Origin: Sorex araneus
Lineage: Eukaryota; Chordata; Mammalia; Eulipotyphla; Soricidae
DNA: 64,000 nt
Assembly (NCBI RefSeq): GCF_027595985.1
Contig: NC_073305.1
Coordinates: 105,397,535 to 105,461,534 of the forward strand
Direction of reading: 5' to 3'
Position 1 is the first letter of the stretch. Each line of letters starts with the position of its first letter. A program made the position numbers and the translations under genes. The notes beneath the pieces are model-generated. The model was given only the letters and a program-made list of their open reading frames with translations. It searched no databases and was not told where the DNA came from. Below are positions 511 to 64,000 of the stretch, piece after piece.

Positions 511-589
511 CCATATCACAGCTGTTATTAATAATTTGCAATGAGCATAGGATTTTATGTACTCAAAATTTGTTTAGAAATAAAATCAG

Positions 590-6060: not shown

Positions 6061-6084
6061 GGTATGGCAGAACTTCCTGCCCCC

Positions 6085-13693: not shown

Positions 13694-14375
13694 ATATTAT
13701 CAAAATCCCAAATATATATTGCTGTAGAAAAAAATTAAGTAAAATCTAAACACTTTAAAACGTTGCAAAATACATTTATTTAGAAATTTGAGAAGCACAT
13801 AAATAGAAAAGAATAAATGCAAAGAATACCTTGCTAAGTTTCTGATGACTTTCACCTTTCTAACCCTCTCATATTCAACATTGATTTTACTCCCTAATTT
13901 ATAAAAGAAAATGAAAACTGTCCGAAATGATCTTACTCTTCTTCTGATAAATCAATACTCCCCTGTTAGTGATAATACCAAGCATACAAACTTACATATT
14001 ATCTTACCAATTCGGTAATCACTCTACTATAACAGAAATGTCTTAATCTCTAAAACTAATCCACAGAAGTCATTACCTCTACCTTTGCTGTAGTTTTCAT
14101 TCTGTCTTGTGCCTGAAGGCTAAAATCTAGATGTTTTCTTTGTTGAATTCTGTATTCAGGACTTCCTTTCATATGAAAGCATTTCATAATCTTTTAACAC
14201 ATATTAACTTCTGCAATTCCTGAAATAAAATATAAAATGAGTAATAAAACATGCACACACTTGAAACTGACCCTACTCTAGCTAATGTTTGTACCTACCT
14301 ATTAAATCTCTTGGATACATTTTCTGCCCATTGCCGTTGCTGTTTTCATCTCGGTTGCTCGACATCTGATAACAT
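13694..14375. other. AT-rich DNA, nothing recognised
   Basis: No repeat or gene recognised up to the RTE-delta element. Confidence 0.45.
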
Positions 14376-14660
14376 AGTTCTTGCTCTTGGAGAACCTGGC
14401 AAGCTACTGAGAGTTTACTGCCCAGAAGAGGGGAGAGCCTGGAAAGTTCCCGTGGCGCATTCATACGCCAAATACAGTAACAATGATGGTTCTCATTCCC
14501 CTGACCCTGAAGAGCCTCTAATGTGGCACCATTGGCAAGAACAAGTAAAGAGAAGCTGCTAAAATCTCAGGGCTAGGATGAATGGAGACGTTATTGGGCC
14601 TGCTTGAGCAAATTGATGATCAATGGGATGACAGTGACAGTAACAGTGATAACTTGCTGA
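14376..14660 (+). mobile_element. RTE-delta element, 5'-truncated
   Basis: It begins in the RTE 5'UTR-like part (CTTGGAGAACCTGGCAAGCT, GCGCATTCATACGCC, CTCATTCCCCTGACCCTGAA) and runs through CTGCTAAAATCTCAGGGCTAGGA. It then switches directly to the RTE 3' end (GAATGGAGACGTTATTGGGC ... GATCAATGGGATGACAGTGA). The junction near 14575-14582 joins sequence that lies about 3 kb apart in the full RTE copy at 52461-56051. The 3' part is very close to 43457-43520 of the coding RTE copy. Confidence 0.85.
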
Positions 14661-14988
14661 AACACAGTATAGTTTAACCACTGAAAATCAAACCAAGTTT
14701 TTAAAAAATTGTTGCATCTAAGAGAAAATAGGAGGTGACTATTTAATTGCCACTTTTCTTACCAGACTGTGGAGATTTAAAGACTAAAATCATGTCTTTC
14801 ATATGTCAAAACAATAGAAATTTGCAACCCAAAATTCTTCATCCACCAAAATACTTTAAGTATTGGAGCAAAATATGTATATTAGGTTATATAAAAATTA
14901 AAACTTGTAACCAGACAACTCTAAAAACAGGAGTTTGCTGAGGAAAAATGATCTGAGGTAAATTTTAAGATCAAGAATTAAGGAATAT

Positions 14989-15222
14989 AGACCAGAGAGA
15001 TAGGACAACGGGTAGGGCGTTTGTCTTGCACACTCCTCCATCCCTTTCGGGGAGCCCAGCAAGCTACTGAGAGTATCCCACCTGCTGGCCTGGCAAGCTA
15101 CCTGTGGCATGTTTGATATGTCAAAAACAGTAACAAAAAGTCTCACGATGGAGACATTACTGGTGCCCACCTGAACAAATCGATGAGCAACAGGATGACA
15201 GTGACAGTGATACAGTAATACA
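14989..15222 (+). mobile_element. tRNA-RTE SINE
   Basis: Short head (AGACCAGAGAGATAGGACAACGGGTAGGGCG) with the B-box part mostly deleted. It is followed by TCCATCCCTTTCGGGGAGCC, the RTE 5'UTR-like body, the 3' block GATGGAGACATTACTGGTGC and a GACAGTGACAGTGATACAG tail. Confidence 0.9.
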
Positions 15223-15665: not shown

Positions 15666-16040
15666 AGAAATGAAATGTCTTACTTTTGGTATGTAAGTGG
15701 GTTAGAGTTGTTTGGGTTTCATATACTTGCTTGTGATTTCTTATATATTGGCTTAAATGGCTCCAAAATGGACTACAACAACCTTCACACACTTCCCTCT
15801 TATTTGGTGGGAAGGTGCTCAGTGGTAGTACTGGTGTTCGAGTATTATCTGCAATGAACTATTGTGAACTACTTTATGAAAATAAAATGTGTAAAAATTG
15901 TAAAAACAAAAATGAAATGAAATATCTTCATTGATTTTAGTTATCTTTGCTAATACTAAGGAAATTTGTGTCTGTTTAATTTTTTAACTGATGCTTTTTA
16001 AATTGTTCCTATTAAGTTCTTCCAGGATAGAGAAATATTT

Positions 16041-16290
16041 GGACTGGAGTGATAGCACAGTGGATAGGGCATTTGCCTTGCATGTAGCTGAACCCGGTTC
16101 GATTCCTCCGCCCCTCTTGGAGAGCCCAGTAAGCTACCAAGAGTATCTTGCCTGCACAGCAGAGCCTGCAAGCTACCCGTGGTGTATTCGATATGCCTAA
16201 AACAGTAACAACAAGTCTCACAATGGAGACTTTACTGGTGCCCGCTCAAGCAAATTGATGAGCAATGGGATGACAGTGACAGTGACTACT
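16041..16290 (+). mobile_element. tRNA-RTE SINE, full length
   Basis: Complete order in one unit: head GGACTGGAGTGATAGCACAG, B box CCCGGTTCGATTCC, CCTCTTGGAGAGCCCAGTAAGC, GGTGTATTCGATATGCC, then CAATGGAGACTTTACTGGTG, AAATTGATGAGCAATGGGAT and a GACAGTGACAGTGAC tail. The 3' 70 bp aligns with the RTE 3' end at 43457-43525. Confidence 0.95.
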
Positions 16291-18706: not shown

Positions 18707-18953
18707 CACTGTATCACTGTATCACTGTCATCCCGATATTCATTGATTTCCTCGAGTGGGCACCAGTAAGGCCTCCATTGTGAGACTTGTTACTGTATTT
18801 GGCATATCGAATACACCATGGGTAACTTGCCAGGCTCTGCCATGTGGGCGGGATACTCTCGGTAGCTTGCTGGGTTCTCCAAGAGGGATGGAGGAATCGA
18901 TCTGAGGTCGGCCGCCTTCAAGACAAATGTCCTACTCTCTGTGCTATTGCTCT
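18707..18953 (-). mobile_element. tRNA-RTE SINE, full length with TSD
   Basis: On the minus strand: degraded head, RTE-derived body, 3' block and (GATACAGT)n tail. Flanked by GCTCTTCATCTT (18695-18706) and GCTCTTCGTCTT (18954-18965), a 12-bp duplication with one mismatch. The whole chimera was thus inserted as one unit. Confidence 0.92.
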
Positions 18954-19047
18954 GCTCTTCGTCTTATTTAAAAAAAATTATTTTCTCCTTAATAAAAACA
19001 TATTTTTAAGAAATGCAACATATTTTTCTTTGATAAGGTCAAAATAT

Positions 19048-20497: not shown

Positions 20498-20748
20498 AGT
20501 AGCACTGTAACACTGTTGTCCCTTTGTTCATTGATTTGCTCGAGGGTGCACCAGCAACATCTCCATTGTGAGACTTGTTGTTACTGTTTTTGGCATATCA
20601 AATATGCCACAGGTAGCTTGCCAGGCTCTGCCATGTGGGCAGGATATTCTCTCGGTAGCTTTCTGGGCTCTTCAAGAGGGGCAGAGTAGTGGAACCTGGG
20701 TTGACCACGTGCAAGGCAAACACACTACCTGCTGTGCTATCTCTCCAG
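20498..20748 (-). mobile_element. tRNA-RTE SINE, full length
   Basis: Minus strand: head ending at 20748 (CTGGAGAGATAGCACAGCAGGTAG), B-box remnant, body GCAAGCTACCTGTGGCATATTTG, 3' block and tail (GTGTTACAGTGCTAC). No clear flanking duplication. Confidence 0.9.
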
Positions 20749-21262
20749 AGACTCTTATATTTAGTGTTATGTTAAAAGTTGCAATAAAGAAGACAATTAT
20801 GTGAAAAGTTACAGAGTAGAGTACATGGGGTGATGGGTCCCCCCTGCAAGAATCTCTATTGAAATTATGACCACTTGTAGATTTATTTGTACATGGAGAC
20901 AAAATGAAATAAACAAAATAGAATTTTAAAGAGCTTCTACATATAGGCATTATTAGTAATTAACTTCATAAATAATCCGTATATCTTCTCTGTAGATAAA
21001 GATCTAATCTTGTAATTGTGGATAATTAGAAGAGTTCATACCCAAGCTGATCTTTATTCAAGACAATAAAGTGGAACTCTGACAAATATATTTTAGAAGA
21101 CAAATGTCACTCTAATTCCCAAGCCACTATAGGGTCGCACTAGAAGAGAAAACTGCAAACTTCTATCACTGGATGAAAGCAGATACAAAAACATAAGACA
21201 CAAATAAAATGCTACTACAAAACAAAGATCAAATGGAATTCAGACCAGGAGTACTCAGATGT
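20749..21262. other. AT-rich DNA, nothing recognised
   Basis: No repeat or gene recognised. Confidence 0.5.
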
Positions 21263-22353: not shown

Positions 22354-22601
22354 TCACTGTATCACTGTCATCCCGTTGCTCATCGATTTGCTTGAGAGGG
22401 CTCCAGTAACGTCTCCATTGTGAGACTTGTTGTTACTGTTTTTGGCATATTTATTACGCCAGGGGTAGCTTGCCAGGCTCTGCTGTGTGGGCAAGATACT
22501 CTCAGTAGCTTTCCAGGCTTTTCGAGTGGGGCAGAGGAATAGAACCCTGGTCGGCCACATGCAAGGCAAATGCCCTACCACTGTGCTATCACTCCAGTCC
22601 A
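22354..22601 (-). mobile_element. tRNA-RTE SINE, full length
   Basis: Plus-strand edges are CACTGTATCACTGTCATCCCG (tail end) and GCTATCACTCCAGTCC (head end). A GCTTAT word on both sides (about 22344 and 22605) may be a short target duplication. Confidence 0.9.
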
Positions 22602-25731: not shown

Positions 25732-25999
25732 ATCACGGTATCACTGTCATCCCTGTCATCCCGTTCTTCATCAATTTGCTCGAGCAGGCACCAGTAACGT
25801 CTCCATTGTGAGATTTGTTGTTACTGTTTTTGGCAAATCGAATACGCCACTGTTTCTTGCTGAATACTTGCCAGGCCCTGCTGTGTGGGCAGAATACACT
25901 CTGTAGCTTGCTGGGCTCTCTGAGAGGAATGAAAAATCAAACCAGGGTCGGCTGCATGCAAGGAAAATGCCCTACCCGCTGTGCTATCGCTTCAGTCTG
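25732..25999 (-). mobile_element. tRNA-RTE SINE, full length
   Basis: Minus strand: head from 25999, B box reverse of AAACCAGGGTC, body with a small insertion near 25850-25865 (TGTTTCTTGCTGAATAC). The 3' block is at 25770-25815, and the tail at the plus-strand left edge duplicates ATCCCTGTC. Confidence 0.9.
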
Positions 26000-26769: not shown

Positions 26770-27024
26770 AATCACTATATCACTGTCACTGTCATCTCAC
26801 TGTCATCGATTTTGCCCGAGCAGGCACCAGTAACGTCTCCATCGTGAGACTTGTTGTTACTGTTTTTGGCACATCAAATACACCACAGGTAGCTTGCCAG
26901 GCTCTGGTGCAGGCAGGGTACTCTCGGTAGCTTGCTAGGCTCTTCAAGCTGAGCGGAGGAAACGAACCCGGGTCGGCCATGTGCAAGGCAAAAGCCCTAC
27001 CTGCTGGGCTATCACTCCAGCCCT
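26770..27024 (-). mobile_element. tRNA-RTE SINE, full length
   Basis: Well preserved on the minus strand: GGGCTGGAGTGATAGCCCAG head, CCCGGGTTCG B box (26963-26974), body, 3' block and (AGTGATA)n tail at 26770-26805. Confidence 0.93.
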
Positions 27025-27395: not shown

Positions 27396-27837
27396 AGACA
27401 GGCACATTTTCAAGCTTTTGTTATTGTAGTTTGGATCACCTGCTTACAGCTGTGTGGCTCTGTGGTTGAAATATATACACATTCCATACTTCAACATAGT
27501 CAATTTATCCAAGGCTCCTGATTCATCCTGCAACTTTTTCCTTCTTTCCTCCCTCAAATGCTTTCCATCTCTGTCCTTCTCATTCCTATAAACTAGGATA
27601 AAGAATAATCTCAGTATCTCTGTATAAGATATATGTGTTTGTGTTTGCATATACTTCTTATTTGCATTCTGAAGTATTACCTGTTTTATTTATATCTAAG
27701 ATTTACTTTTAAAATTTTAATCAAAACAAAATGTTAATGAGAAGAAAAATAGTAAAAATAATCATTACAAAATATTTATAATTTTTGAAGCAGTATATGA
27801 TAAGTGAACTAAAATATTATTTTTAAGTATTCATTCC
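27396..27837. other. AT-rich DNA, nothing recognised
   Basis: Possibly further L1 3'UTR just after 27395. Otherwise nothing. Confidence 0.4.
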
Positions 27838-28008
27838 TCTCAAAGAGCCCGCAAGCTACCAAGAGTATTGCGCTTGCATGGCAGAGCCTGGCAAGCTACC
27901 CATGGTGTATGCGATATGCCAAAAACAGTAACAATAGGTCTCACAATGAGACATGTTACTGGTGCGAGCTAGAACAAATCGATGAGCAACTGGATGACAG
28001 TGACAGGT
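27838..28008 (+). mobile_element. tRNA-RTE SINE, 5'-truncated
   Basis: Starts in the body at CTCAAAGAGCCCGCAAGCTACC, without the tRNA head, and runs through GGTGTATGCGATATGCCAAA to the GATGACAGTGACAGG tail. Confidence 0.9.
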
Positions 28009-31952: not shown

Positions 31953-32323
31953 CAGATAGAGAAGGGAACACCAAGTAAAATGTGGTTGGAGGCCACGCAG
32001 GGGAAGGGTGATGCGTGCTGCTGAAAGTAGACTAGAGACTTAACACGATGGCCACTCAACACCCCTATTGCAAACCACAACACCCAATTGTAGAGAGAGA
32101 ACAAAAGGGAATACCCTGCCACAGAGGCAGGGTGGAGTGGAGGGAGATGGGATTGAGCAGTGGGAGGGATGCTGGGTTTATTGGTGGTGGAGAATGGGCA
32201 CTGGTGAAGGGATGGGCTCTCGAACATTGTATGAGGGAAGCAAGAGCACGAAAATGTATAAATCTGTAACTGTACCCTCACGGCGATTCACTAATTAAAA
32301 AATAAATAAATTTAAAATTTTTA
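31953..32323 (+). mobile_element. L1 3' end, 5'-truncated, recent
   Basis: 3'UTR with the motif AGAATGGGCACTGGTGAAGGG and the end TGTACCCTCACGGCGATTCA, then an A-rich tail. The perfect 13-bp duplication AAAAATTGATTCT (31940-31952 and 32324-32336) delimits it. Open frames on the minus strand here are accidental. Confidence 0.93.
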
Positions 32324-39984: not shown

Positions 39985-40396
39985 TGCAAAGAAGCAAAGA
40001 AGCAGGCGCATATGCTGTCAGAGCCCATGTGCTGCTTGCACCCACGCGGCATAGCACAAGTGGTGCCTGAGCACATGTGTCGCCCGCATCTCCCCTCTTC
40101 AGTTGCGTATTTTCATGCTTTCGTGTCTAATGCTAGGATGTATGTAGGGGCTCTCTCCACCCCTGCAGAAGTCCATGTTCTCTCTTCAGTGCGTTAATCA
40201 TTCTCTCTCAATCTCCCCCTCCACACCTTAAAAATCCTCCAAATAAAATCACTGTCTGTCTACTCCTGAAATTCCTTTCTGCAAGGCAAGAGAAGAACCC
40301 AGAAACCCTGGGTCCTGGGTGACAGAGTCTGTTGGGGAGAAAGTGACTGTCTCATCCCCACTTCACATAAGTCACCCGTGGGGCTCACTGACATCA
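39985..40396 (+). mobile_element. Putative LTR fragment (ERV)
   Basis: GC- and CT-rich DNA with AATAAA at 40242-40247. It is followed by an R/U5-like stretch (CACTGTCTGTC, CAAGAGAAGAACCCAG) and a possible CA end near 40396. The 5' edge is unresolved, and there is no TSD or internal coding region. An ancient simple LTR is the best guess. Confidence 0.4.
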
Positions 40397-40403
40397 TATA
40401 TAT

Positions 40404-40640
40404 AAGCAGGTAGGGCATTTGCCTTGCACACAGCTGACCCGGGTTTGATTCGTCCATCCCTCTAGGAGATCCCAGTAAGCTACCAGAGCATCCCCCTGAC
40501 ACCGCAGAGCCTGGAAAGCTCCACATGGTGTATTCTATATGACAAAAACAGTAACAACAAGTCTCACAATGGAGATGTTACTGGTGTCAGCTCTAGCAAA
40601 CGATGAGCAACGGGATAACAGTGCTAACAGTGCAAAGAAG
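40404..40640 (+). mobile_element. tRNA-RTE SINE, slightly 5'-truncated
   Basis: Starts within the A box (AGCAGGTAGGGC), then TTGCCTTGCACACAGCTGACCCGGGTTTGATTC, the RTE-derived body, TCACAATGGAGATGTTACTGG, and a tail ATAACAGTGCTAACAGTGC. Confidence 0.92.
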
Positions 40641-41225
40641 CAGAGTTTAAGGCAATAACCAGCAATATGAGAGAAAATACATGTGGGGAGAATAATTATG
40701 ACAATTCAAACTACCTTTGCTTATTTTAAGGAGTGCAATTTCTCACTTGGAAACAGTCCTTATTTTTTATTCAAATAAAATATAAAAACCAACCATATAT
40801 GCATAAACAACAAATTTACATTTCAAGAAAATTAATAGAAGTCAATCAATAGAATGTAGGCAACAAAAATTCTCTGTGGACAAATTCTATTTTTTTCTTG
40901 TGAAAGGAGTGATTATTAATTTTTCCCTAGGTAAGAATTTTATTCTTATAAATCACATTCCTTTTCTAAACATGATTTTATATATTTTTTGCGAGCAGTC
41001 CCAAGACTGTTTCAAGAACTGTTCTGTTCTTCAATATACCTTGTAAATTTAGCGATGTACTTCAATTGTTTGCTGTGTACAAATGAACATATTCCTTTCC
41101 AACTTTAATAGTTTCAATTATTATTTCTCACTCTTGTGGATATAGGAATTCAGATATCCTAAATAAAGGGACATATATTTTATAATTATGTTAAATATAT
41201 AAATATGAACTTTTATAAATAATAA
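40641..41225. other. AT-rich DNA, nothing recognised
   Basis: Flank of the RTE insertion. No gene signal. Confidence 0.5.
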
Positions 41226-43530
41226 CTCACAGTTCCAGAAGGCCAAATTTAAACGCTGGACATGGGAGTCTCCCGGTAGACAGTTCCACAATGAAATTGA
41301 ACACATCATATTCAATCGAAGGTTTTGCCTAACCAATGTCGCTGTTGTCCCAAAATTCCAAACGGGATCAGTCCACCGTGTCCTTCTTGCAAAATTCTAC
41401 TTCACAGAGCAAGGAGAAAAGTCTCCAAAATTTAAGTCTAAGAAGGCAACTCCCAGAATGACCACCAACTGCGAGCTCTTTGGCACTATTCCAGTAACGT
41501 GGGAAGATGCTGTCCTTGACAACATCAACAAGGAATAAGATCGACTGGTTCAGCACCTCCATGACTGTGCGAAGAATGCCGAGAGTGAGAAAGCCACAAA
41601 CAGATGCTTGTCTTTGGAAACTCTCGAGCGCATTTGTCAACGTGGTTTGGCAAGAGCCTCAGGCAACCACAAGCTAACTTCCATGCTCACAAAGCAGAGA
41701 TGCAATAAAGGAAGACCTCAAAGAGAGAAGAGCAGCAGTGTTGGCCAGTGCAGCAGAAGCCGGGAAAAGTATTCGCAACGCTCGCCTGTCCTTCGCCAAC
41801 TGCAAGACCAAGATGACTGCCCTGCGACGTCCTGATGGATCTATCACATCCTCCAGAAAGGCGATGGAGAGGAATATTTATGACTTCTACTCAGATCTCT
41901 TTGACAGCCATGTCCACCTGCCCATGTACCAAATTCCGCGGAATGGATATGTCGTTCCCAACTTTCTCCCTTCTGAAATCCAACACGCCATTTCCTTGGT
42001 AAGGACGTGTACAGCACCTGGTCCGGACAAGGTCAGACCCAAACACCTGAAGAATCTGCCGCCAGTACTCATCAATGCACTGACTCAACTCTTCAACACA
42101 CTACCTGTCTGAATGCAAGATTCCATCTCAGTGGAAAGCCAGTAGGACCGTTCTGTTGTACAAGAAGGAAGACATCCACGACATTGGCAACTGTCGCCCA
42201 ATCTGCCTGCTGTCTCTCATCTACAAGTTGTTCATTCATGTCATCCTGAATAGAATAGGCAGAACACTAGGAGAAGGACAACCATGCGAGCAAGCCGGGT
42301 TCCGAAGGGGATTCAGCATGATAGACCATACCCACACAGTGACCAAACTCATTGAAGTTTCTTGGGAGTTCAAGATGCCGCTCTGTCTAATGTTCATGGA
42401 CTTAAAGAAGGCCATCGATTCTGTTGAGACTGAGACGGTCATTAAAGCCCTAGCCAAACAGCGCGTTGAAACTCAGTATATCAAAATCCTCCTCGAGCTG
42501 TATTGTGGATTCACCACCAGGATCTCACCTTTCTACAAGGAAGTAATCATTGATGTAAAGAGAGGGGTGCAGCAGGGTGATACCATTTCACCGGAACTCT
42601 TCAGTGCCGCCCTTGAGAACATCATGCGACGACTGGAATGGGAAGGAATGAGAGTGAAGATAGATGATCGGCAATTACACCACCTCTGCTTCGCTGATGA
42701 TATCATTCTCATAACACCAAACATTAGCCAAGCGGCACAAATATTGACGGACTTCGACCATGAGTGTGGAAAGGTCGGTTTGCAGCTAAATCTCAACAAG
42801 ATGATGTTCATGAAAAATGACTGGTCACTGAAGCTCCATTTGCTCTCAATGGAACGAACATCTCTGAATGCAGCAGCTATGTGTACCTGGATCGAGAAAT
42901 CAACATGAGGAATGACTTGGTGCCAGAACTGCGCAGGAGGAAGAGAGCAGCGTGGAATGCATTCAAAAGTGTCGAAGAGGTGGTTAAGAGAACGAAGAAC
43001 CTCTGACTCTGGGCGCATCTTTTCGATTGTACCATGCTTCCTGCACTAACATATGCCTCAGAGACCTGGGCCCTATGGAAACAGGATGAGAATGCTATTA
43101 GGGTATCCCAAAGAGGAATTGAATTGAAAGAGCTATGCTAGGAGTATCACATCTCACTCAGTGAGAGAAGGAATTCGGAGTTCTGACCTCCATCGACGGT
43201 CAAGAATCAGGGATGCTGTCTTGTTTGCCAAGGCATCAAAAATCAGATGGGCCGGTCATGTAATGCGATTCAGAGATAACCGCTGGACTAGAGCTGTTGC
43301 TGACTGGATTCCACAGGATGTCTGAAGACCTCCTGGCCGCCCACCAACTAGATGGTCAGATTTCTTCGTCAAATCCCTGAATGAATGATTTGAAGCTCTT
43401 CCTGTTCTTGGAGAGAGCAGATATCATTGGGCTGTACTAGCACGCGAAAGGGACAAATGGAGACTTTACTGGGCCTGCTCGAGCAGATTGAAGATCAATG
43501 GGATGACAAGTGATACAAGTGATACACAAT
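41226..43530 (+). mobile_element. RTE-clade LINE, 5'-truncated coding copy
   Basis: It starts inside the endonuclease domain (SQFQKAKFKRWTWESPG..., 41229) and runs to the 3' tail (GATACAAGTGATACAC). The connector region is at 41540-41900. The reverse transcriptase follows, with a long open piece at 42156-42908 containing NRIGRTLGEGQPCEQAGFRR, a GVQQGDTISP-type motif and an intact FADD box (HHLCFADDIILITPN, about 42681-42720). After that the C-terminal RWAGHVMRF and GRPPTRWSDFF motifs are out of frame or broken. Disruptions include the stop after NTLPV (near 42110), frameshifts at about 41700, 42110 and 42890, and several later stops. The SDH endonuclease triad residue Asp is changed (SVH). 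It cannot make a full protein. Wording throughout is typical of RTE-1-like elements of nematodes. Confidence 0.95.
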
Positions 43531-44562: not shown

Positions 44563-44732
44563 ATCAGATTCTTTTAAAACTGTTAGAATATGGCAAGGTT
44601 CTGAAACTCTAGGTAAGGGTTACATCTTATAAGAAAACAAGAGTGGGGATTTTTTTTAAATCACTGTTGCCCCTCTGCTTATAGAATAGTTGTATCTTTA
44701 AACAAAAGTTTTCTGAGTTAGTTGAAGACATA

Positions 44733-45248
44733 AGTCACTGTCACTGTATCACTGTCATCTCATTGATCAATGATTTGCTCAAGCAGGCACCAGTAACGTC
44801 TCCATTTGTCCTAATCCTGAGATTTTAGCAGCCTCTCTTTACCTGTTTTTCCCAGTGGTGCCATATTGGAGGCTCTTTCCGGGTAAGGGGAATGAGAACC
44901 ACCAATGTTACTATATTGGCATATCGAATACACCACGGAGAGCTTGCCAGGCTCTTCCGTTGGGGCAGGATGCTCTCAGTACCTTACCAGTTTCTCTCAG
45001 ATGGAGAACTAAGCTATAAGAGGTCGCGTGGCTGAGAATTCAGTGGCTCTCTTCCGGGAGCGTTGTTTTATAGTCTCTGAATGTTGGCGTTGATGGGATT
45101 ACATAGCCCTGGGGCAGTTTGTGGGTGTAGCTACCAATCTACTGGAAAATGGGGTGTCTGGGTGGAGGAAGTCCCGTCCCAATCCGAACAGGCTTGGAGA
45201 TCTCAGCCTCGGGTCCCACACACCTGGGTTTCTCGGCCGGTTCTTTCA
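44733..45248 (-). mobile_element. RTE-delta element
   Basis: Minus strand, 5' to 3': GC-richer module (TGAAAGAACCGGCCGAGAAACC onward), 5'UTR-like part with GAGAGCATCCTGCCCC and CTCATTCCCCTTACCC, 'gctgctaaaatctcaggattag', then the 3' block ACAAATGGAGACGTTACTGG and tail. No coding sequence. Flanking 21-bp segments 44712-44732 and 45249-45269 match at about 16 positions (TCTGA-TTAGTT-AA core), a decayed target duplication. TCTGAGTTAGTTAAAAA is then repeated again at about 45271. Confidence 0.88.
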
Positions 45249-49304: not shown

Positions 49305-49359
49305 AAGACACTATGGCTTTCAGTTCACATTACATTTAGTTTAAAGTCTTAAAAATTAT

Positions 49360-49740
49360 AGACATAGTGAGTAATTTGGTCACTGTGTGGATAGAGTAGA
49401 TTGTGTTGAATCCTTTTCGGAACCCGGCTTGCTCACATGGTTGTCCTTGGTCTAGTGTTCTGCCTATTCTATTCAGGATGACTCGAGTGAACAACTTGTA
49501 GACACTGGACAACAGGCAGATTGGGTGATAGTTACCGATGTCATGGATGTCTCTCTTCTTGTACAACAGAATGGTCCTGCTGGTTTTCCATTGTGATGGA
49601 ACCTTGCATTCGGACAGGTAGCATGTGAAGAGCCGAGCCAGTGTATTGACAAGTACTGGCAGCAGACTCTTCAGGTATTCGATTCTGACTTTGTCTGGAC
49701 CAGGTGCTGTACACGTCTTTACCGACGAAATGGCATCAAG
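49360..49740 (-). mobile_element. RTE-clade LINE, internal fragment
   Basis: Minus strand encodes the stretch from ...CTAPGPDKVR through LLYKKRDIHDIGNYHPICLL to NRIGRTLDQGQPCEQAGFRK and IHTVTKLL, i.e. the start of the RT domain only. It stops about 1.1 kb short of the RTE 3' end and has no tail. On the upstream side a GAAATGGCAT word is repeated at about 49735 and 49750. The open piece is about 76 codons. Confidence 0.92.
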
Positions 49741-50329
49741 GAAATGGCATCTGCCACCCTCTTGTTTGCAATTTTAACCAGTATTTTCTACCTTCAAAAG
49801 GCTAAGAGGAAAATTTCTAGGCTTCTGGCATTCAAAAAATGGACAGGATAGTTCCATTAGATTAAGTCATCTTACTACAAAGACCAAAATATAAAATTAT
49901 TAAATCACTGTTCCTATCTGAAGATGGTGTGTGAAGCGGCTAACTGTGACTTCCCCCTTTGCCTTCATATTTAACTGCTGAATGACCCTCAAAGCCCAGT
50001 TTAATATGACTTCAGTGTGTAGCCATATTATTCACAACCAGTGACTGAATGGGGTGGGTCTGGGAGTGGAGTTTTTGCTACCAAAAACTTTAAGAAGGTT
50101 TATGTCATCATCTTCTTCCTCATCATCATCAATTATTCTAATTTTAAAGGTACTTATATGAAGCCATTTTATCGTGATTTGTTTTAAGTCATATGACTTA
50201 AAACCTACCTCAATACCTACCTTTATCCTGTTGTGCACCAAACTCTGATTATAAGATTTTATACATTATTGTTGAAAATCCTGTTTGGAAGATGTTTCTA
50301 GTTGAAGATTCATGAATTAGGGTCCAGAG
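49741..50329. other. No gene recognised
   Basis: A short TCATCATCTTCTTCCTCATCATCATC run at 50105-50131. Nothing else. Confidence 0.5.
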
Positions 50330-52336: not shown

Positions 52337-52963
52337 AAAATATAATTTGTCTGGCCTTGCAATAATTTTTCTCAATGCAGGTTGTCAGAATTCTTAGTGT
52401 AGCATAGAGAATGTAAGAAACATTAAACAAAAGACACATTTTAAAAAGGATCTTGTAATAATCACTTGTATCACTTGTCATCTCGTTGCTCACCAATTTG
52501 CCTGAGTGGGCACCAGTAATGTCCCCATTTGTCCCTGTCACATGCTAGTGTTGCCCAATGGCATCTGCTCACTCCAGGAACACGGAGAGCCTCAAACTGT
52601 TCTTTTAGGGTCTTGACAAAGAAGTCTGACCATTCTCATAGGTCAGGCGTTCTTTTGACATTCCATGAAATCCAGTTGGTAACAAACAGCTCTAGTCCAG
52701 CGGTCATCTCCAAATTGCATTACATGTCCAGCCCACCTGATTTTCAATGCCTTGGCAAATGAGGCAGCATCCCTGATCCTCAATCCGAAGTAAGAACTTT
52801 GGATTCCTTCTCTCACTTGAGTGAAACGTGATATTCCAAGCATAGCTCTTTCGATTCTTCTTTGGGATGCCTGAATAGTGTTCTCATCCTGTTTTTGTAA
52901 GGCCCAGATTTCTGAGGCATATGTTATTGCAGGAAAAATGGTTGAGTAAAAAAGATGTGCCCC

Positions 52964-53138
52964 GGGGCTGGAGTGATAGCACAGCGGGTAGGGTGTTTGC
53001 CTTGCACGCGGCCGACCCAGGTTCAAATCCCAGCATCCCATATGGTCCCCTGAGCACTGCCAGGGGTGATTCCTGAGTTCTTGAGTGCATAAGCCAGGAG
53101 TGACCCCTTTTCATTACTGGGTGTGACCCAAAAAGAAA
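52964..53138 (+). mobile_element. SOR SINE nested in RTE
   Basis: Inserted in the RTE 3' third. The AAAAGATGTGCCC / AAAAAATGTGCCC flanks (about 52950 and 53139) are the duplicated RTE sequence. The body has a small TGAGTTCTTGAG insertion. Confidence 0.95.
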
Positions 53139-55289
53139 AAAAAATGTGCCCAGAGCCTGTGGTTCTTAGTCCTCTTAGCCAGTTCTTCAACGCTCTTGAA
53201 TGCATTCCACACTGCTCTCTTCCTCCTGCGCAGTTCTGGTGCCAAGTCCGTTGTCATGTTGAGTTCTTGACCCAAGTACACATTCAGAGATGTTCATTCA
53301 GTTGAGAGCAAATGTAATGTAAGTAAATAGTTTGTTTCTCAGGAACATTGTCTTCATGAGATTCAGCTGCAGTCTAACATTTCCACACTCACTGTCAAAG
53401 TCGGCCAGCATTTGTGCTGCTTAGCTAATGTTTAGTGTTATTAGAACGATGTTATCAGTGAAGCGGAGGTGGTGCAATTGCCAACTATCCTTCTTCATCC
53501 CATTCCTTCCCATTCAAGTTGTCGCATGACGTTTTTGAGGGTGGCACTGAAGAGTTTCTGTGAAATGGTATCACCTTGCCGAACCCCTCTATTTACATCT
53601 ATGATCACTTCTTGCAGAATAGTAAGATCCTGGTGGTGAATCCGTAATACAGTTCATGGAAGATCCTGATATACTGAGCTTGAACACCCTGTTTGGCTAG
53701 GGTTTTGATGGCCACTTCAGTCTCAATAAAATCAAAGACCTTCTTTAAATCGATGAACGTTAGACAGAGCGGGATCTTGAACTCTGGCAAAACCTCAATG
53801 ACCTTGGTTACCATGTGAATAGGGCCGATCGTGCTGAATCCTTTTCAGAACCCAGCTTGCCTGTATGGTTGTTCTTCATCTACTGTTCTGCCAATCGTAT
53901 TCAGGATGACTCGAGTGAACTACTTGTAGGCAACGGACAACAGGCAGATCGGGCCATAGTTGCTGATGTCATGGAAGTTTCACTTCTTGTACAACAGAAT
54001 GGCCCTGCTGGTTTTCCACTGGGACAGAACCTTGCATTCAGACATGTAGCATGTGAAAAGTCAAGCCACTGTATTGACGAGTACTGGCAGCAGATTCTTC
54101 AGGTGTTTGGGTCTGATCTTGTCTGAACCGGGTGCTGTACACATCTTTACCAGTGAAATGGTGTGTCAGATTTCAGAAGGTAGAACACTGGGAATGACAT
54201 ATCCGTGCTTCGGAATTTGGTATGTGTGCAGGTGGACGTGGATATCAAAGAGATCCGAGTAGAAGCCGTGGATAACCTTTTCCATTGCCCTTCTGGAGGA
54301 TGTGATAGATCCATTAGGATGTCAGAGGGCAGTCATTTTGCTCTTGTACTTGGCAAAGGACAGGTGAGTTTTGCAAACACTTTCCGCAGGTTCTGCCATA
54401 TCAGCCAACACTGCTGCTCTTCTCTCCTTGAGGTGCTCCCTTATCGCTTCTCTGCACAGCTTTGCAAGTTTGGACATTAGCTTGTGATTGCTTGAGGTAC
54501 ACGCAAACCACGTTGGCGAATGAGCTCAAGACCAGTGGATCATATTCCTTGATGTTGTCAATGACGGCATCTTCCCACATTGCTCCAAAGAGCTCCCAGT
54601 TGGTGGTCATTCTGAGAGTTCTCTTCTTAAACTTTGCAGTTTAAACTTCTTAAACTTTTTTCCCCACTCTGTGAAGTAGAATTTTACATGAAGGAGATGG
54701 TGGTCTGATCCCATTTGGAATTTTGGGACAACAGCAACTTTGGTCAGGCAAAACCATCAATTGAATGTGATGTGCTCAATTTCATTGTGGAGCAGTCCAC
54801 CGGGAGACTCCACGTGAACGTTTAGTTTAGATTTTGCCTTCTGGAATTTTGAGTTACCATGGATGGTCTTGGTCAACATGATGAACTCAGATGGTCTCTC
54901 ATCCTGTTCGTTCCATTCTAGGCCGTTGGTCCTGATGTGGAGTTCTTCAGGCAACCTTCTTGGTTCTGTCTTGTCATCAAAATCTCTGACAAGGACCTTG
55001 TAGAAGGTGTTGTCTTCTTTATAGAACTTCTCCAGCTCCATGTAGAACTTCTTAATTTCTTCTTTGTTGTAGTTGGATGTTGGTGCATAGACAACGAAGA
55101 TAGAAACTGCCAGCAATGAGCCACATATATTCAACTGTAAGCATCTGATTCGGGTTGCTAGGCATTCGAATGAATCAATGCTCATTGTCAAGTTCATGTT
55201 GATGACAGACGATACTGACACCACCAACACCTCTACTGTCACATGTTCTGAGGAACAATTCTTCTCCGGTGTCGAAAATGCTTGATGTG

Positions 55290-55482
55290 GGGCTGGAGCG
55301 ATAGCACAGCAGGTAGGACATTTGCCTTGCATGCAGCCATCCTGGGTTCAATTCCCAGCGTTCATATGGTACCCTGAGCACCACCCAAAGTAATTCCTAA
55401 GTGCATGAGCCAGGAGTCACCCCTGTGCAATGCAGGGTGTGAGCCAAAAAGCAAAAAACAAAGAAACAAAGAAACAAAAAGC
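55290..55482 (+). mobile_element. SOR SINE nested in RTE endonuclease
   Basis: Splits the endonuclease coding region. Perfect 11-bp duplication TGCTTGATGTG (55279-55289 and 55483-55493). A (CAAAGAAA)n tail. Confidence 0.96.
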
Positions 55483-56061
55483 TGCTTGATGTGATTGATA
55501 CCTTCTCATCTGTCAGTCCAGGGATGTAGTTCTTGATCTTCTGCACTTGCACCATCAGGTCCTCAATGGATGCTTCTGATGCCAGTGTAAGTGTGTTGAA
55601 AGTAGAGACAGTCATTTTAGTCCTTCTTCATTTTGGCAGCCTAGTTTGGCCCTGAAATTTTATCAGTCTCTCCTTGCTCTCATCCTTCCCAATGCTGCCG
55701 TATTGGGGGCTCTTTCAGGGTCAGGAGAATGAGGCCCATTATTGTTACTGTTTTTGGCATATTTAATATGCCACTGGTAGCTTGCCAGACTCTGCCATGA
55801 GGGCAGGATATCCTTGGTAGTTTGCTGGGCTCTCCAAGAGGGATGGAGGCTTTTAGGGCAGCCTGTAATCGCCCTTACAGGTGCTCCCACTCTATCAAAT
55901 GCAAGATTTTGGTCGACTTTGATGTTGTAACGATCTGCACGCTGAAAAACACACACCTGCCTGCGTCTCTGGGCAGCACCTTTTGGTTCACTCTTCCCCT
56001 ATTGGCACCATTGCCACCCCCTGCCATGATGAGGTGGTGAACCATCAAGGGTCTTATAATA

Positions 56062-56859
56062 CTATTAGAAACAATATAAATTTTACACTTTTTCAAATAG
56101 GACCACATAAAGTTAATTATAAGTGCAGCCAAGCATCAGAAAATGTCAAAATTTATTTTACCTACTGTTTATGTTATTATTTTATCTGTCCTAATATTGA
56201 ACCTTTGAAAATCTAGAACTCCCTAATCACTGATTCAAGTAAATAACTGGACAATAAACAGAAGCAAACTTAAATGTTTTATGCTCCCAGTGACTCTTTA
56301 AACCGAGTAAGTTCTTGCTCTGACTCCCGAACCAAAGTAAAATAAATACAATCATCAATGGAGAAACCTGCATGCTAATACACTGCCCTGTGACTAATAT
56401 GGTTGAAGAAGATGAGTAAAGGAACCTAATATTCATCCCTTGAATTTTTTAAGGTTCTCTAGAAACAGAAGCAATGGAATATTTATAGATATGAGATTTA
56501 ACTATGGGATTGATTTTCATGGTCATGAAGATGGAAAGCTTAACACTCTCTAGTTCAAGCTAAAGAACTTTAAAATCCTATGGGTAATTCAGTTGAATGT
56601 TTTGAAAGCATGAGAACACGGAGAAAAATTCTGGAATCCAAACCCCTAATATATGGGAGCTCTTACGTTTCTAAGTTTGCAAAGATAGATGTTCTCCACT
56701 AAAGAAAAAAAATGTATGTATGTATATATGTATATATTTAATCCAGGCCTTCAACAAATTTGAAAAGAGCCACCCATATTAAAAGGGGCAGATGATCTTT
56801 ACTAATCCACTGAATTAAAGGTTAATCTTCCTAAAACCATCAGGATTATTTTTAATTTT
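56062..56859. other. AT-rich DNA, nothing recognised
   Basis: ATGTATGTATATATGTATATATT tract at 56712-56738. No gene or repeat recognised. Confidence 0.5.
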
Positions 56860-57130
56860 TTTATTAGTGAATCACCGTGAGGTACAGTTACATACTTACA
56901 AACTTTTCGTGTTTGCATTTTAGTCATACAATGATCGAGTACCTATCCCTCTACCAGTGCCCATTCTCCACCACCAATGTTCCCAGTATCCCTTCCAGCA
57001 CCCCCACCCCACTCCACCCCACCCCAACCTCACCCTGCCTCTGTGGCAGGCCATTCCCTTTTGTTCTTGCTCTCCTTTTGGTGTTGTGGTTTGCAATAGA
57101 GGTATTGAGTGTCCATTGTTAAAACCATCG
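56860..57130 (-). mobile_element. L1 3' end, 5'-truncated
   Basis: Reverse of the 3'UTR at 31990-32300: TAGTGAATCACCGTGAGGTACAG at the tail side, GTGCCCATTCTCCACCACCAATG, TTTGCAATAGAGGTATTGAGTG at the upstream side. Confidence 0.9.
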
Positions 57131-57244
57131 TGATTGACACTAGAATAAAAATTTACCAGATAACTGGAGAACTTATAGATCAGTCAAATAGACATATAAA
57201 GATAACCAGCACTCTCTTTTACTCCACGAAGTATAACATTAATG

Positions 57245-57415
57245 TCGGATATAGAGCTCAATAGTCAGGATAACACACTTTTATGCAGGAGGACCAGGTT
57301 CTATTCCCAGAGCCATATGATCCCCTGCATTCTGCTGAAAATAACCTTTGAAAGTCCTCTGAGTCAAAAGTAGCCCACAAGCACCATTGGGCATGGCTCT
57401 AAAACAAAAATAAAC
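57245..57415 (+). mobile_element. Old SOR-type SINE
   Basis: Faint head, GGAGGACCAGGTTCTATTCCCAG, CAAGCACCATTGGGCATGGC, A-rich end. Strongly diverged. Confidence 0.6.
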
Positions 57416-58362
57416 CACAAAAATTAAACATTAGCAATATCACATGTTGGTTAATCCTAAATATTAATACCATCAATAAAAACAAGAGCTACAAGGAAGG
57501 GTGTTCTAATAGTACACTCTTCCTGTCCTGTGAAGAAAATAAGTGGACTTGGGAGATTGAATTTATTATCATAAGCTCAATTAGGTAGGAATTCAATGTC
57601 TGATGTTACTTCACATTATACTGTCTTCCAGGGTATATCAACAAAACTCCTGGCAAATTACATGAAAGTATTGATCTTGAATTTTCTCAATCTCAGAACT
57701 CAATTAATGTCACAGATTCTTTCCTTTAAATCAATAACATTGTACTATATTATCACTAATTTTCTTCAGTAACTCTGTGCCATTCAGGACTTTTTTATTT
57801 TCTTTGCAAGACTATTAATTGTTCTGCTACCTATACAATTGAAATCTCATAGAACCCAGTGAACAGAAAATAGTAGATCTGCCAAGTAGATAACTTGGAA
57901 AGTCACTATTACCAGAGGGTTATAAATGATCCTCATTAAAATTCAAGGACCTAATTTCTATATGAGCTTCTGGATAATTTAAAAGTTTAGAAATTTTGGA
58001 ATAGTACTTCTAAAATGAGAAATAGTTTTCCTAACCTTGAACTCCCACAGCAAATGATATACAGTCTATTTAAAGCAATATATATGTATATATGTTTTGA
58101 TATGTTATTAGATTCATTTACTGAGTACTTCAACCTCCTGTCATAATTCACATAAAAAAGAGAGAATTTTAAGTGTAATCTGTGTTTTACACTTGTAGTT
58201 CTCTCACTGGGAAATGACTCCAGGAATTCAATTTTGCTCAAAATATCTTTGGCATATCCATATATAATATGTTATTTAAAATAAGTTTGTAACACCAGAA
58301 TCCCATAGATTGGGCCAAAAATTATTCAGAGTAATCTTTATCTTTCAAATAGTTCTTGGCTT
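57416..58362. other. AT-rich DNA, nothing recognised
   Basis: No gene or repeat recognised. Confidence 0.5.
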
Positions 58363-58490
58363 GGGACGGGGGATATGACTCAAGTAAAGAGTCCATCCTA
58401 GCACATGTGAGTTTCCTGACTTTGATCTATGACACAGCAGTACCCCTAAAACCCTTAAATCACTGGATATATATATACCCCTGGTGTACC
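58363..58490 (+). mobile_element. Possible old tRNA-derived SINE
   Basis: GGGACGGGGGATATGACTCAAGTAAAGAGTCC...CTAGCACATGTGAG...TTTGATCTATGACAC has tRNA-SINE spacing. It resembles the type at 21515 more than SOR. Confidence 0.4.
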
Positions 58491-59875
58491 CCAAGTTCCG
58501 TCAGTGACCTAATCACCCAGAACCACTTACCTTAATATCAAATGTCAGGTTAGCTTTGATGGAACAAGCATGATCTTATAGGAAGTTCTCACTTTACTTC
58601 CTACACTGCCCAGGTCTACTTCATTTAGATCTTAAAAAGCAGTTCTTGGGATTCTGTGGGGCCTTAATAGAGTCTATACCATTGATTACAGAACTACTTT
58701 ACTAGGTATTTTGAGACTCCAGTTCTGAATTTGATTTTATTAAAGGTAGATATCAGACAAAACAAATCAGACATGCTTCTTAGAACTACATCATGAAATT
58801 AAAACAGGAATAGAATTTGGGAGCTTAAGTGTGACACTTTAATATGTAGCTCATGCTCCCTACCATTGAATTTAACTATGCCATATTCCACTCCTCCCTC
58901 AACCCAGAATAGCAGATATAGAAACATGTAAATAAGAATCAAATAATTTACTGAAGGCCTTTCATGTGACCCGAGAATCAAAGAGCAGTGCCTTTCAGCC
59001 CTACTTACAGCTAGAGTTAAAGGGTATATTACAATTCTTACACATGAGAAGGTTTGGTAAAACAAAGATCAAGGAAATATATGTTTAAGAGATGATAATT
59101 TTTTGGACAAAGAAGAACTTTGAAAACTGGTATTCACATGGTTGTTTGATCAAATGAATAGGAAAAAATATGGGAATAGATTTTCTGAATGAATTCAGTG
59201 TGAGATTGTGCTCTATCTATTTAAACTGTTATCAAGACTCCCAGTGCAGTAGGGATTCAGAACTCTGGTGGATTTTTACCAGCTTCTTTGCTGGTCACAC
59301 TTCTTTGCCGAAACTTTTTATTGCATGGCCAATGGATCTCATGACCTTGAGGACAGCAAACAAATTACTACTTCGTGGTCCACAGTTTCCAGTCTCAGCT
59401 GAACATCTAATTTTCTGGTATCAGTGAAAGAGAACAAACCTCATAATTTATACTAATTATACTACACATTCACTGTGGATTTGTATTTTCTTCCATTGGT
59501 TACATGCTCTTCCAGAAAACTTCAAATCATTTAAGATTGAAATTTTTGAATGGAAATAAGATAGGAGTTAATTCCTAATAATATTAAGATGCTACCTAAT
59601 TAGAAATGCAAATTGACTGAAAAATACAGGCTACAAGTGGCAATAAATGTTACTAGGAGTTAAATTGCTCATTCTCAGATCTAAGTGAATCTATCATAAT
59701 TTTGTGTGTGGACACTGCATCTGATTCTTAGGACATAGCCATGATGTGTAAAGATTTAAGAATCTAAAATGGTGTAAAGTATGAAGTAAAGAGATGAAGA
59801 GTTTATTTGTCCTTTTCAAACTTTTCCTGTTGTACTAAAAATATCCTTTAGCAAAATTAAAGAATTGTGTGTCCT
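58491..59875. other. Nothing recognised
   Basis: A frame at 59170-59427 (85 codons) has no recognisable domain. No repeat or RNA gene recognised over 1.4 kb. Confidence 0.5.
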
Positions 59876-59888
59876 AATTATTAAGGAA

Positions 59889-60129
59889 GGGGCTGGAGCG
59901 ATACACAGCGGGTAGGGCGTTTGCCTTTCACGCGGTTCATCTGGGTTCAATTCCTCCATCCCTCTCAGAGAGCCCAGCAAGCTACCTAGAGTATTCTGTG
60001 GGCACAGCAGAGCCTGGCAAGCTACCCGTGGCATATTCAATATGCCAAAAACAGTAACAACAAGTCTCACAATGGAAACGTTACTGGTGCCTGCTCAAGC
60101 AAATTCATGAACAATGGGACAACAGTGAC
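59889..60129 (+). mobile_element. tRNA-RTE SINE, young, perfect TSD
   Basis: Head GGGCTGGAGCGATACACAGCGGGTAGGGC (one base lost in the A box), B box GGGTTCAATTCC, then CTCCATCCCTCTCAGAGAGCCCAGCAAGC, GGCATATTCAATATGCCAAAAAC, CAATGGAAACGTTACTGG and ACAACAGTGAC tail. The perfect 13-bp duplication AATTATTAAGGAA (59876-59888 and 60130-60142) shows that tRNA head and RTE tail moved as one unit. Confidence 0.97.
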
Positions 60130-60256
60130 AATTATTAAGGAAAAAGATATTTTTGAGGAACAAATATCTAATATATTTAAAATATATAGTTATTTTATAT
60201 ATTTATACATTTATATAAATATATTTTATATATTTAGTATATTATATAGTAAACAC

Positions 60257-61264: not shown

Positions 61265-62090
61265 TTAATATAATTTTTTAAATTTATTTTTTCTTTTCTA
61301 TTTTTTATTTTATAAGTTAGTTCACAATATTTGATTGCATTTAATATTCAAACAGCAATCCCACTAGCATTACACCTTCCCACCACCAAATTCAAGACGT
61401 TTCCATCCCAAGCCCCTATCCCTGTCCCAAAACACAACCAAAAGTATATATTTTGTATTGTCTGTTATGAAGAACTGCTGAATATGCTTACAAACAAGTG
61501 ATCATACATGAAACAGTGTGAATATTGTTGTATTTTGGCAGGAACCATTAAGACATTCTATAGGATGTCACTAACATGTTGTTAAAGTTTGGATGATATG
61601 AGCTTTGGTATATATATGAAAATATGTATATATATATATATATATTTCCCTCTACGATTTGTTGACTACTGTCTGAACCCCATCAAATATGGTGTGGTTA
61701 TTATGGGTAATGGGTAGGGGTTGTCTTATGATGTGCCGTGGCCACGCAGTCCAGTAATACGTTCACTCATATGTGAGGCTTGGCCAGAGCCTGTAGGGAG
61801 TGGCCTTGAGTGTGGCAGCTGTTGGGTTGTGGATGTCGGCTGTCGGGGCTGGGTGGCGTGGGGAGGGCTCTCACCTGCCCCTTCTGGGGCGCCTCCAGTG
61901 AAGCTGACTGGTGAGGAGTCTGGTGGCATGACTATGGGGCCTCATGTTATGCTCCCTTCTGGGAGAAGCAGCCTTGTGATCTGGATGGTGGCCAATGATG
62001 AGATTATCTGGCCAGATTATTATAATCTTTGCCAGCATGTTTCAACTCATTTTCCTGCTCCTCTTTTCATTGATGGTGGGAAACTCTAAC
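61265..62090 (-). mobile_element. L1 3'UTR, long copy (probable)
   Basis: The T-rich left edge and the CCACTAGCATTACACC...CCCACCACC phrases are the reverse of the L1 3'UTR. The right part (61725-61990) is GC-richer and gives a spurious 122-codon plus frame. A TA-repeat lies at 61628-61645. The link between the two parts is inferred. Confidence 0.5.
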
Positions 62091-63109: not shown

Positions 63110-63136
63110 TTTGCATTGGTAAGCATCATGATCATG

Positions 63137-63168
<32 letters not shown>

Positions 63169-63860
63169 ACTGTTGATCGTTGGATTTCTCGAGAGGTCTC
63201 AGTAACGTCTCCATTCATCCTAACCCTGAGATTTTAGGAGCCACTCTTTACTCATTCTTCCTAAGGATGTCACATTGGAGGCTATTTCAGGATCAGGGAA
63301 TGAGACCCAGCATTGTTACTCGTTTTGGCATATGAACACACCATGGGGAGTTTTCAAGGTTCTCCCATGTGGGCAGGAAACTCTCACTAGCTTGCCAGGT
63401 TCTCCCAGAGGGAGAACATGCTATAAGATGTTGCACAGCCGAACATGCTATAAGATGTTGCACAGCTGAAAAGCAGCCACTTTGAGCTCCAGAAGCTTGG
63501 TTTTAAGTCTCTGGATGTTGGCCATCGATGGGGTTACACGACTCCGGGGGCAGTCCCTGGGTGTGACCGCTAGCTACTGGAAAATGGGAAATCTGGGCAG
63601 AAGAGGCCCAGTTCTGATCCGAGCAGGCTTGAAGGTCTTGGCCCTGGGTCCGACACACCTGGGTTCCTCTGCAGAGAGTCTCTTGCCCGCGCACCTGGCT
63701 GTCTTCCCCAAGGCCCCTCGAAATGGGTGTGGTCCAGCTTCCCTCCCCACCCTGAGCTGAGTTCCTGAGGCGAAGACCTCCAGAGCCTAGCCACAGCCAT
63801 GCTCAAGGCCCCTCTCCACATGTTTAGATGAGCCTCACGCATGAAGGAACTGTCATTGAT
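63110..63860 (-). mobile_element. RTE-delta element with 5' inversion
   Basis: Minus strand: 3' tail replaced by an (ATC)n tract, 3' block reverse of CTCAGTAACGTCTCCATTC, junction CTAAAATCTCAGGGTTAGGA, 5'UTR-like part, then the GC-richer module (63480-63690). The outermost 63700-63850 runs in the opposite direction: it matches 6090-6240 on the same plus strand although the rest of the two elements is antiparallel. A 27-bp unit (GAACATGCTATAAGATGTTG...) is tandemly duplicated at 63414-63440 and 63441-63467. Confidence 0.88.
63137..63168. repeat. (ATC)n microsatellite in RTE-delta tail
   Basis: About ten ATC units at the place where other copies carry the ATCACTGTATCACTG tail, so the tail seems to have expanded into a trinucleotide array. 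Confidence 0.92.
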
Positions 63861-64000
63861 AAGCAGTAATAGAAATTGTCACCTATGGCATTCTGTGCTC
63901 CTTGCTAATGCAGTTCGAAGGAACGTAGCCATTAAAATTTAAATTGTGCATTATTGGATATTTGTATATCCCAAACAGATATATTTTAAATTACAGTAAA

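Follow-up and report, generated by a model that had tools for sequence, protein, structure and literature searches.

A strongylid-type RTE retrotransposon and its probable passengers in a 64-kb window of the Sorex araneus genome

In a 64-kb stretch of Sorex araneus DNA (contig NC_073305.1; hereafter the window, within which all copies were counted), a long interspersed element (LINE) of the RTE type shares parts of its 5′ untranslated region (5′UTR) and its 3′ end with two kinds of shorter element: four elements that lack its open reading frame (ORF), here called deltas, and 12 short interspersed elements (SINEs) with a tRNA-like head. We consider it quite likely that all of these belong to one retrotransposon system, in which an engine of the RTE1_Sar kind serves two kinds of passenger, the deltas and the SINE. 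An earlier note on this DNA, from which we take the label SOR for the SINE type, had likened the working of the set to that of BovB, Bov-A and Bov-tA; our results bear this out, in that the RTE, the bipartite ORF-less elements and the SOR-headed SINE share a 5′UTR core (module U) and a tail (module T).

The window was compared with itself by BLAST and searched by nhmmer with a hidden Markov model profile built from nine SINE copies, and the copies were read with their flanks. Alignments of U and T were judged against shuffled sequences (300 shuffles for the SINE body against the RTE 5′UTR) and two negative controls. For target-site duplications (TSDs), flank pairs of the elements were compared with 210 mismatched flank pairs. 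Comparisons with the literature draw on portions of the cited papers.

The shared 5′UTR core and tail

The most complete RTE copy, RTE_A (52461-56046, minus strand), is a full-length but decayed LINE that was delimited by its TSD and by tblastn of six RTE proteins. It is bounded by the TSD TATTATAAGACCCTT / TATTACAAGATCCTT (56047-56061 on the 5′ side and 52446-52460 on the 3′ side; 15 nt with 2 mismatches), the score of which was equalled by 2 of the 210 mismatched flank pairs, and it contains two A-tailed SOR-type SINEs on the plus strand (52964-53145 and 55289-55472). From its 5′ end, RTE_A comprises module R (55850-56046; its first ~197 nt, with one copy in the window), module U (55649-55849), the remains of the RTE ORF with frameshifts and stops (52471-55615, start placed by eye) and module T (52461-52530), which consists of the final ORF codons and ACAAGTGAT repeats. 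With RTE_A extending to 56046, the start of the shared core lies ~200 nt from the 5′ end of the element. As delimited by self-BLAST, nhmmer and alignment, U is present whole in deltas, whereas the SINEs carry only the part corresponding to 55739-55849. A second copy, RTE_B (41223-43525, plus strand), is 5′-truncated and retains a reverse transcriptase domain and T (43455-43525); a third piece, fragment C (49351-49773, minus strand), was recognised by self-comparison and tblastn.

In the 243-nt SINE consensus, a ~66-nt tRNA-like head is followed by a ~117-nt body (U′) and a ~60-nt tail corresponding to T. The profile returned 52 rows, 14 of which cover body and tail (12 SINEs and two deltas); most of the remaining rows are head-only. 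Nine of the SINEs are of full length (~240 nt), lying on the plus strand at 59889-60129, 16040-16280 and 40389-40625 and on the minus strand at 20509-20752, 22361-22601, 25749-25999, 26785-27024, 3383-3632 and 18721-18958. One has a shortened head (14988-15205, plus strand) and two are 5′-truncated (27830-28003, plus strand; 403-512, minus strand, with an 11-nt TSD). A perfect 13-nt TSD, AATTATTAAGGAA (59876-59888 / 60130-60142), flanks the copy at 59889, which has no poly(A); all 12 copies were placed with the profile. These 12 copies are thus short, repeated and uniformly composite, and in three of them (59889, 403 and 18721) the TSD lies beyond ~99% of the null, its score being equalled by at most 2 of 210 mismatched pairs (≤1%). 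In three further copies the score was equalled by 8.1% of mismatched pairs.

The nine-copy profile indeed matched the 5′UTR of RTE_A at 55849-55739 with an E value of 2.3e-29, in agreement with the proposal that several SINEs (59889, 16041, ~26785 and others) have this 5′UTR as their body; the three 5′UTR strings on which that proposal was based were located at 55826-55845, 55767-55786 and 55742-55762 of the minus strand. Aligned over 119 columns, U′ and the RTE_A 5′UTR agree in 101; their score of 83 compares with at most 18.5 in 300 shuffles. The tail of the SINE is identical to T of RTE_A in 49 of 59 columns (score 38; shuffle maximum 15.5) and to T of RTE_B in 50 of 59 (score 39; shuffle maximum 16.5). 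Both controls, U′ against the RTE ORF region and the SINE head against the 5′UTR, fell inside the null. These tail scores uphold the claim that the RTE and the SINE have the same 3′ end, with one correction: the stretch concerned is coding up to the stop codon and is not 3′UTR.

In both RTE_A and RTE_B, the ORF ends with DDK-stop within the terminal ACAAGTGAT repeats. The SINE-tail consensus translates to QWRRYWCPLEQIDEQRDD, which corresponds to the last ~18 codons of this ORF. Aligned with the C termini of RTE proteins, the peptide scored 79 and 82 against P0007 and P0008, which carry no source name (shuffle maxima 51 and 47; the matched stretch of P0008 is EWRRCWRPLEQLDDQRDD), and 63 against Necator P0002 (shuffle maximum 48). 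Judged by this translation, the SINE tail is a fossil of the final codons of the RTE rather than of a 3′UTR. Since it reads as the RTE C terminus, the tail ties the SINE to the RTE lineage independently of the two RTE copies. The ACAAGTGAT tail itself is present in both RTE copies and in none of the 16 ORF-less elements, 12 of which carry the motif ACAGTGA, three ACAGTGC or ACAGTGT, and one, the delta at 63126-63853, an ATG repeat. Loss of a single A shifts the stop codon out of frame.

The head of the SINE is likewise shared, in this case with the A-tailed SOR-type SINE of the same window. The two head consensus sequences are identical at 63 of 66 nt, as expected from the suggestion that the SINE carries a SOR-type tRNA head, and therefore represent one head on two tails. 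Both consensus sequences contain RNA polymerase III boxes; those of the RTE-tailed SINE are the A-box-like TAGCACAGCGGG and the B box GGTTCGATTCC. ARAGORN called the SOR-type consensus as tRNA-Ala(tgc) and made no tRNA call for the RTE-tailed one. The RTE-tailed SINEs diverge from their consensus by 0.148 on average, against 0.121 in a set of twelve A-tailed SOR-type SINEs. Judging from its tail, the A-tailed SINE is probably driven by L1.

The kinship of the engine is indicated by its protein. A 274-codon open piece of RTE_B contains the reverse transcriptase domain PF00078 (E 7.1e-27); when an endonuclease domain was sought, Pfam gave no match in the RTE_A pieces 54760-55347 (5′ ORF, crossed by a SINE insertion) and 52707-52883 (short and C-terminal), both of which are decayed. 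With the RTE_B piece as query, 382 protein matches were obtained; of the 120 listed, 114 carry a source name and six do not. All 114 source-named matches come from strongylid nematodes, of the genera Necator, Haemonchus, Angiostrongylus, Ancylostoma, Nippostrongylus, Heligmosomoides and Parelaphostrongylus. Identity to the RTE_B piece among the listed matches reaches 77% in the named set and 78% in the six without a source name. Six listed RTE proteins aligned back to the window by tblastn each matched RTE_A, RTE_B and fragment C. A shrew RTE with the Repbase name RTE1_Sar has been reported as a case of horizontal transfer between strongylid nematodes and Sorex araneus (Dunemann and Wasmuth, PMC6542046). 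The RTE of the window fits the RTE1_Sar kind in that its protein relatives are strongylid, and it is through these relatives that the assignment is made.

We also searched for relatives and functional RNAs by other means. The 111-aa open frame at 55666-55998, which spans R and U, has no protein relative (two candidates, none at E ≤ 10). Rfam, searched for a self-cleaving ribozyme or other RNA, gave nothing at gathering score over the whole window, and a single match with E 0.72, far below its gathering score, over 55600-56080. No relatives were found in IMG/VR, either by protein pattern or by a 31-nt U pattern; the 24 viral contigs matched there by an 18-nt head pattern were rejected as chance, as none of them matched the window by BLAST at E ≤ 1e-3. 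Among GTDB genomes, nine stretches fit a pattern, and none of the nine encodes a relative. A repeat pair at 56849-57122 and 32040-32309 (79% identical) is unrelated to the RTE set.

ORF-less elements and the origin of the core

The four deltas had been described as elements that keep both RTE parts with the ORF removed. All four do carry U and T, and this part of the description stands; they are more than that, as three also carry a module P and two a module Q. The full-length delta (63126-63853, minus strand) reads Q (about 63855-63681), P (about 63672-63440), U and T. That at 44727-45248 (minus strand) reads P-U-T, and that at 14350-14644 (plus strand) U-T only. The fourth, at 6075-6607 (plus strand), has an inverted Q (6075-6245), P (6231-6428), a shortened U and a distinct T junction. 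P, of ~200 nt, lies upstream of U and has TATAAAA at the same place in two of its three copies, one of them in the delta at 44727-45248; Q is distal to P. The unit Q-P-U-T, up to ~730 nt long, was probably transposed as a whole. The delta at 44727-45248 has a 15-nt TSD with two mismatches (TTTAACTAATTCAGA / TTCAACTAACTCAGA), equalled by at most 2 of 210 mismatched pairs. The delta at 63126-63853 has the TSD TGCTTATCAATG (63854-63865) / TGCTTACCAATG (63114-63125), read by eye and outside the TSD null. No TSD was found in the flanks of the delta at 14350-14644.

Three side observations concern these elements. In the delta at 6075-6607, Q is inverted directly beside P (6075-6245), as expected from twin priming (5′ inversion). 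The delta at 63126-63853 ends (63126-63165) in its ATG repeat and not in the ACAGTGAT tail of its relatives. A Q-like piece at 61761-61935 has no adjoining match to P, U or T and possibly belongs to another family with the same 5′ end.

U and T are joined at three types of junction, one found in all 12 SINEs, one in three deltas (44727-45248, 63126-63853 and 14350-14644) and one in the delta at 6075-6607. The 3′ breakpoints of all three types lie within about 20 nt of one another (by eye). From this clustering, the minimal 3′ signal would seem to comprise ~60-75 nt of T.

Several results weigh against a single system. TSDs are not outstanding in six of the 12 SINEs, for which 22.9% or more of the mismatched flank pairs do equally well; none was found at the flanks of RTE_B, and none at the P boundary of the delta at 6075-6607. 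The match of the SINE-tail peptide to Haemonchus P0003 is marginal (45 against a shuffle maximum of 42). RNAalifold gave no conserved RNA structure of U, with compensatory change in 2 of 19 pairs, and in the one good hairpin, GGCRTATTCGATATGCC, variation is mostly one-sided. Mobilisation of the passengers in trans by the RTE, very probable in our view, is itself read from sequence. Moreover, U and T both match RTE_A, yet U is flanked by a repeat in this copy, the only one in the window with its 5′ end, and the ~400-nt Q-P part of the deltas has no clear match there. The repeat in question is an 8-nt direct repeat, AGGCTGCC, at 55857-55864 and 55635-55642; when two 27-nt windows were placed at random 20,000 times with the same spacing, they shared at least 8 nt in 1.65% of cases.

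As the Q-P part is unmatched in RTE_A, the deltas are not simply RTE_A minus its ORF. Either a Q-P-U 5′UTR exists in another RTE subfamily, or the deltas are chimeras, in which an unrelated Q-P sequence, with a TATA box in two copies, was joined to U and T. We regard the chimeric origin as a real possibility, somewhat short of an even chance. It would account for the lack of a clear match in RTE_A, for the TATAAAA at a constant place in P and for the solitary Q-like piece. The comparison of R with Q-P leaves room for the other solution. Four such comparisons scored 19, 12.5, 10 and 13 (95th percentiles 18, 15.5, 15 and 15.5), the best of which is borderline, just above its 95th percentile with a shuffle maximum of 25, and the 5′ end of RTE_A may be unusual; three further comparisons scored below their shuffle maxima (20, 23 and 16 against 26, 26 and 25). 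Moreover, the 5′UTR of AviRTE is ~800 nt long (PMC4844689), which makes a long Q-P-U 5′UTR plausible in another RTE subfamily.

The flanking repeat bears on a different question, whether U is native to the RTE at all. Given the repeat in the sole full-length copy, U may not be native there, and the AGGCTGCC pair may either have arisen as a TSD when U was captured or represent a recurrent 5′UTR motif. If U were an independent module inserted in the 5′UTR of RTE_A or of an RTE subfamily, only the tail of the passengers would derive from the RTE. The AGGCTGCC motif is followed by AAAA-like sequence on both sides of U, and the modules upstream of U differ among RTE_A, the deltas and the SINEs, both of which would be in accordance with such an insertion, as would the presence of a single 5′-complete RTE copy. 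We nevertheless think an inserted U unlikely. The earlier note had named, as an outcome that would undo its model, a separate SINE inserted upstream of the RTE. In this wording it was not found, since U in RTE_A has no tRNA head, no SINE tail and no P, and continues for ~90 nt beyond the SINE junction in a stretch that the deltas also carry, which speaks against a SINE insertion and does not resemble a normal delta insertion; a weaker form of the objection persists through the 8-nt repeat. In addition, the delta at 44727-45248 has a similar motif, AGGCTGCTAAAAT, close to the end of its U, so that the repeat may be recurrent; R, U, ORF and T all lie between the two copies of the outer TSD of RTE_A; and SINEs built from a 5′UTR part and the 3′ end have been published for other RTEs.

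Two further explanations carry very little weight. A BovB relationship of the RTE, with the set as the known system of the ruminant type, is highly improbable: the general layout is alike, but all 114 source-named proteins among the 120 listed of 382 matches are strongylid, and a BovB-type reverse transcriptase was rejected on these relatives rather than by direct comparison with BovB. By the same token, the claim that the RTE is unrelated to BovB holds as judged by its protein relatives. Chance or low complexity as the source of the similarity between SINE and RTE has practically no likelihood and was rejected, given that shuffles reached no more than 18.5 for the body (observed 83) and 15.5-16.5 for the tail (observed 38-39) and that 12 copies have a common structure.

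Proposed mechanism and order of descent

In the single-system model, the SINE would be transcribed by RNA polymerase III from its tRNA head. The RTE reverse transcriptase would then recognise the RNA through T, that is, through the end of the ORF and a short repeat of the ACAGTGAT type, and insert a copy by target-primed reverse transcription, with TSDs but no poly(A) as the result. We infer recognition through T and target-primed copying from three features: the tail that SINE and RTE have in common, the TSDs and the lack of poly(A). The passengers would have arisen when the RTE interior was lost, at three distinct junctions, and the SINE would have gained its head from, or swapped it with, the A-tailed SOR-type SINE, so that one head came to serve two engines, the second probably L1. 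A function of U is plausible, since a piece of the 5′UTR is likewise kept in the published SINEs of AviRTE and hagfish RTEs.

The order in which the classes arose is less clear. The SINE body is nearer to RTE_A (the 101 of 119 columns given above) than to the delta consensus (84 of 102). The SINE tail, by contrast, is nearer to the deltas (52 of 58 columns) than to RTE_A (49 of 59) or RTE_B (50 of 59); the SINE sides with the deltas in eight tail columns (mainly one or two indels), with RTE_A in three and with RTE_B in one. Because the body and tail comparisons disagree, a chain from RTE through delta to SINE is not clearly supported. We lean slightly towards the view that this is a mammalian SINE family whose tail, and possibly body, came from a retrotransposon acquired from parasitic nematodes and whose head came from a resident A-tailed SINE.

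With these elements, RTE1_Sar, a published case of horizontal transfer between nematodes and a mammal, gains probable passengers. If the model is right, it would be, after BovB and AviRTE, a further horizontally transferred RTE with SINEs made from its own 5′ and 3′ parts. Each insertion of the SINE would then mark a time of activity of the transferred engine in shrews, and dated insertions could time the transfer within shrews. The common 3′ breakpoints would likewise place the recognition signal of the RTE inside its own coding sequence. Why the parasites of RTE elements keep a piece of the 5′UTR, and how short the 3′ signal can be, thereby become testable.

Comparison with known systems

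Our literature search covered openly licensed PMC papers, in the available parts of which we found no prior description of RTE-tailed SINEs in shrews. The word RTE occurs in neither of the shrew genome papers PMC11544316 and PMC10850158, as far as their accessible portions go, and 'shrew' does not occur in the main text of PMC3747384. In the report of RTE1_Sar, whose relatives belong to the same strongylid group as those of the window RTE, the main text (PMC6542046) contains none of the words SINE, UTR, non-autonomous and nonautonomous. It therefore seems that this set of SINE and deltas in the shrew is undescribed, whereas the bipartite RTE architecture is already known. For the latter reason the idea that this architecture evolved twice, in ruminants and in the shrew, had to be given up, because BovB, AviRTE and hagfish RTEs, together with the elephant and opossum listings, show the same design across several RTE lineages.

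Bov-A2, Bov-tA, RTE1-N1_LA, AFRO_LA, RTESINE1 and MAR4 are all listed in Table 1 of PMC3747384. The BovB, Bov-A2 and Bov-tA set, entered there as LINE/SINE pairs, resembles the shrew set in its combination of a LINE, an ORF-less element of LINE ends and a tRNA-headed SINE (PMC3747384). Compared by description, the two differ in the RTE, as judged by protein relatives, and in the head, which is listed as tRNA-Glu for Bov-tA (PMC3747384), the SOR-type consensus of the shrew being read as tRNA-Ala(tgc) by ARAGORN. RTE1_LA, RTE1-N1_LA and AFRO_LA of the elephant and RTESINE1 and MAR4 of the opossum are similar by description, being listed as RTE-tailed SINEs or RTE 5′-end elements (PMC3747384). 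In hagfish, the system of SINE1-1_EBu with RTE-2_EBu and RTE-4_EBu likewise comprises bipartite RTE derivatives that later gained heads derived from RNA, and such bipartite non-autonomous derivatives are described as common for RTE elements (PMC7245038). The hagfish case differs in its 7SL RNA head, in the RTEs involved and in its several modules from two RTEs (PMC7245038).

The SINEs of AviRTE (ManaSINE1, GymnSINE, BuceSINE and MeloSINE) carry different promoter heads on a bipartite tail made of part of the 5′UTR and the 3′UTR (PMC4844689). They share with the shrew SINE this bipartite tail and a horizontally transferred RTE that also occurs in nematodes. The RTE lineage, the hosts and the heads are different. 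The 3′ part of the AviRTE tail is ~40 nt of 3′UTR, whereas that of the shrew SINE is the end of the ORF, and the shrew head also occurs on an A-tailed SINE in its own genome.

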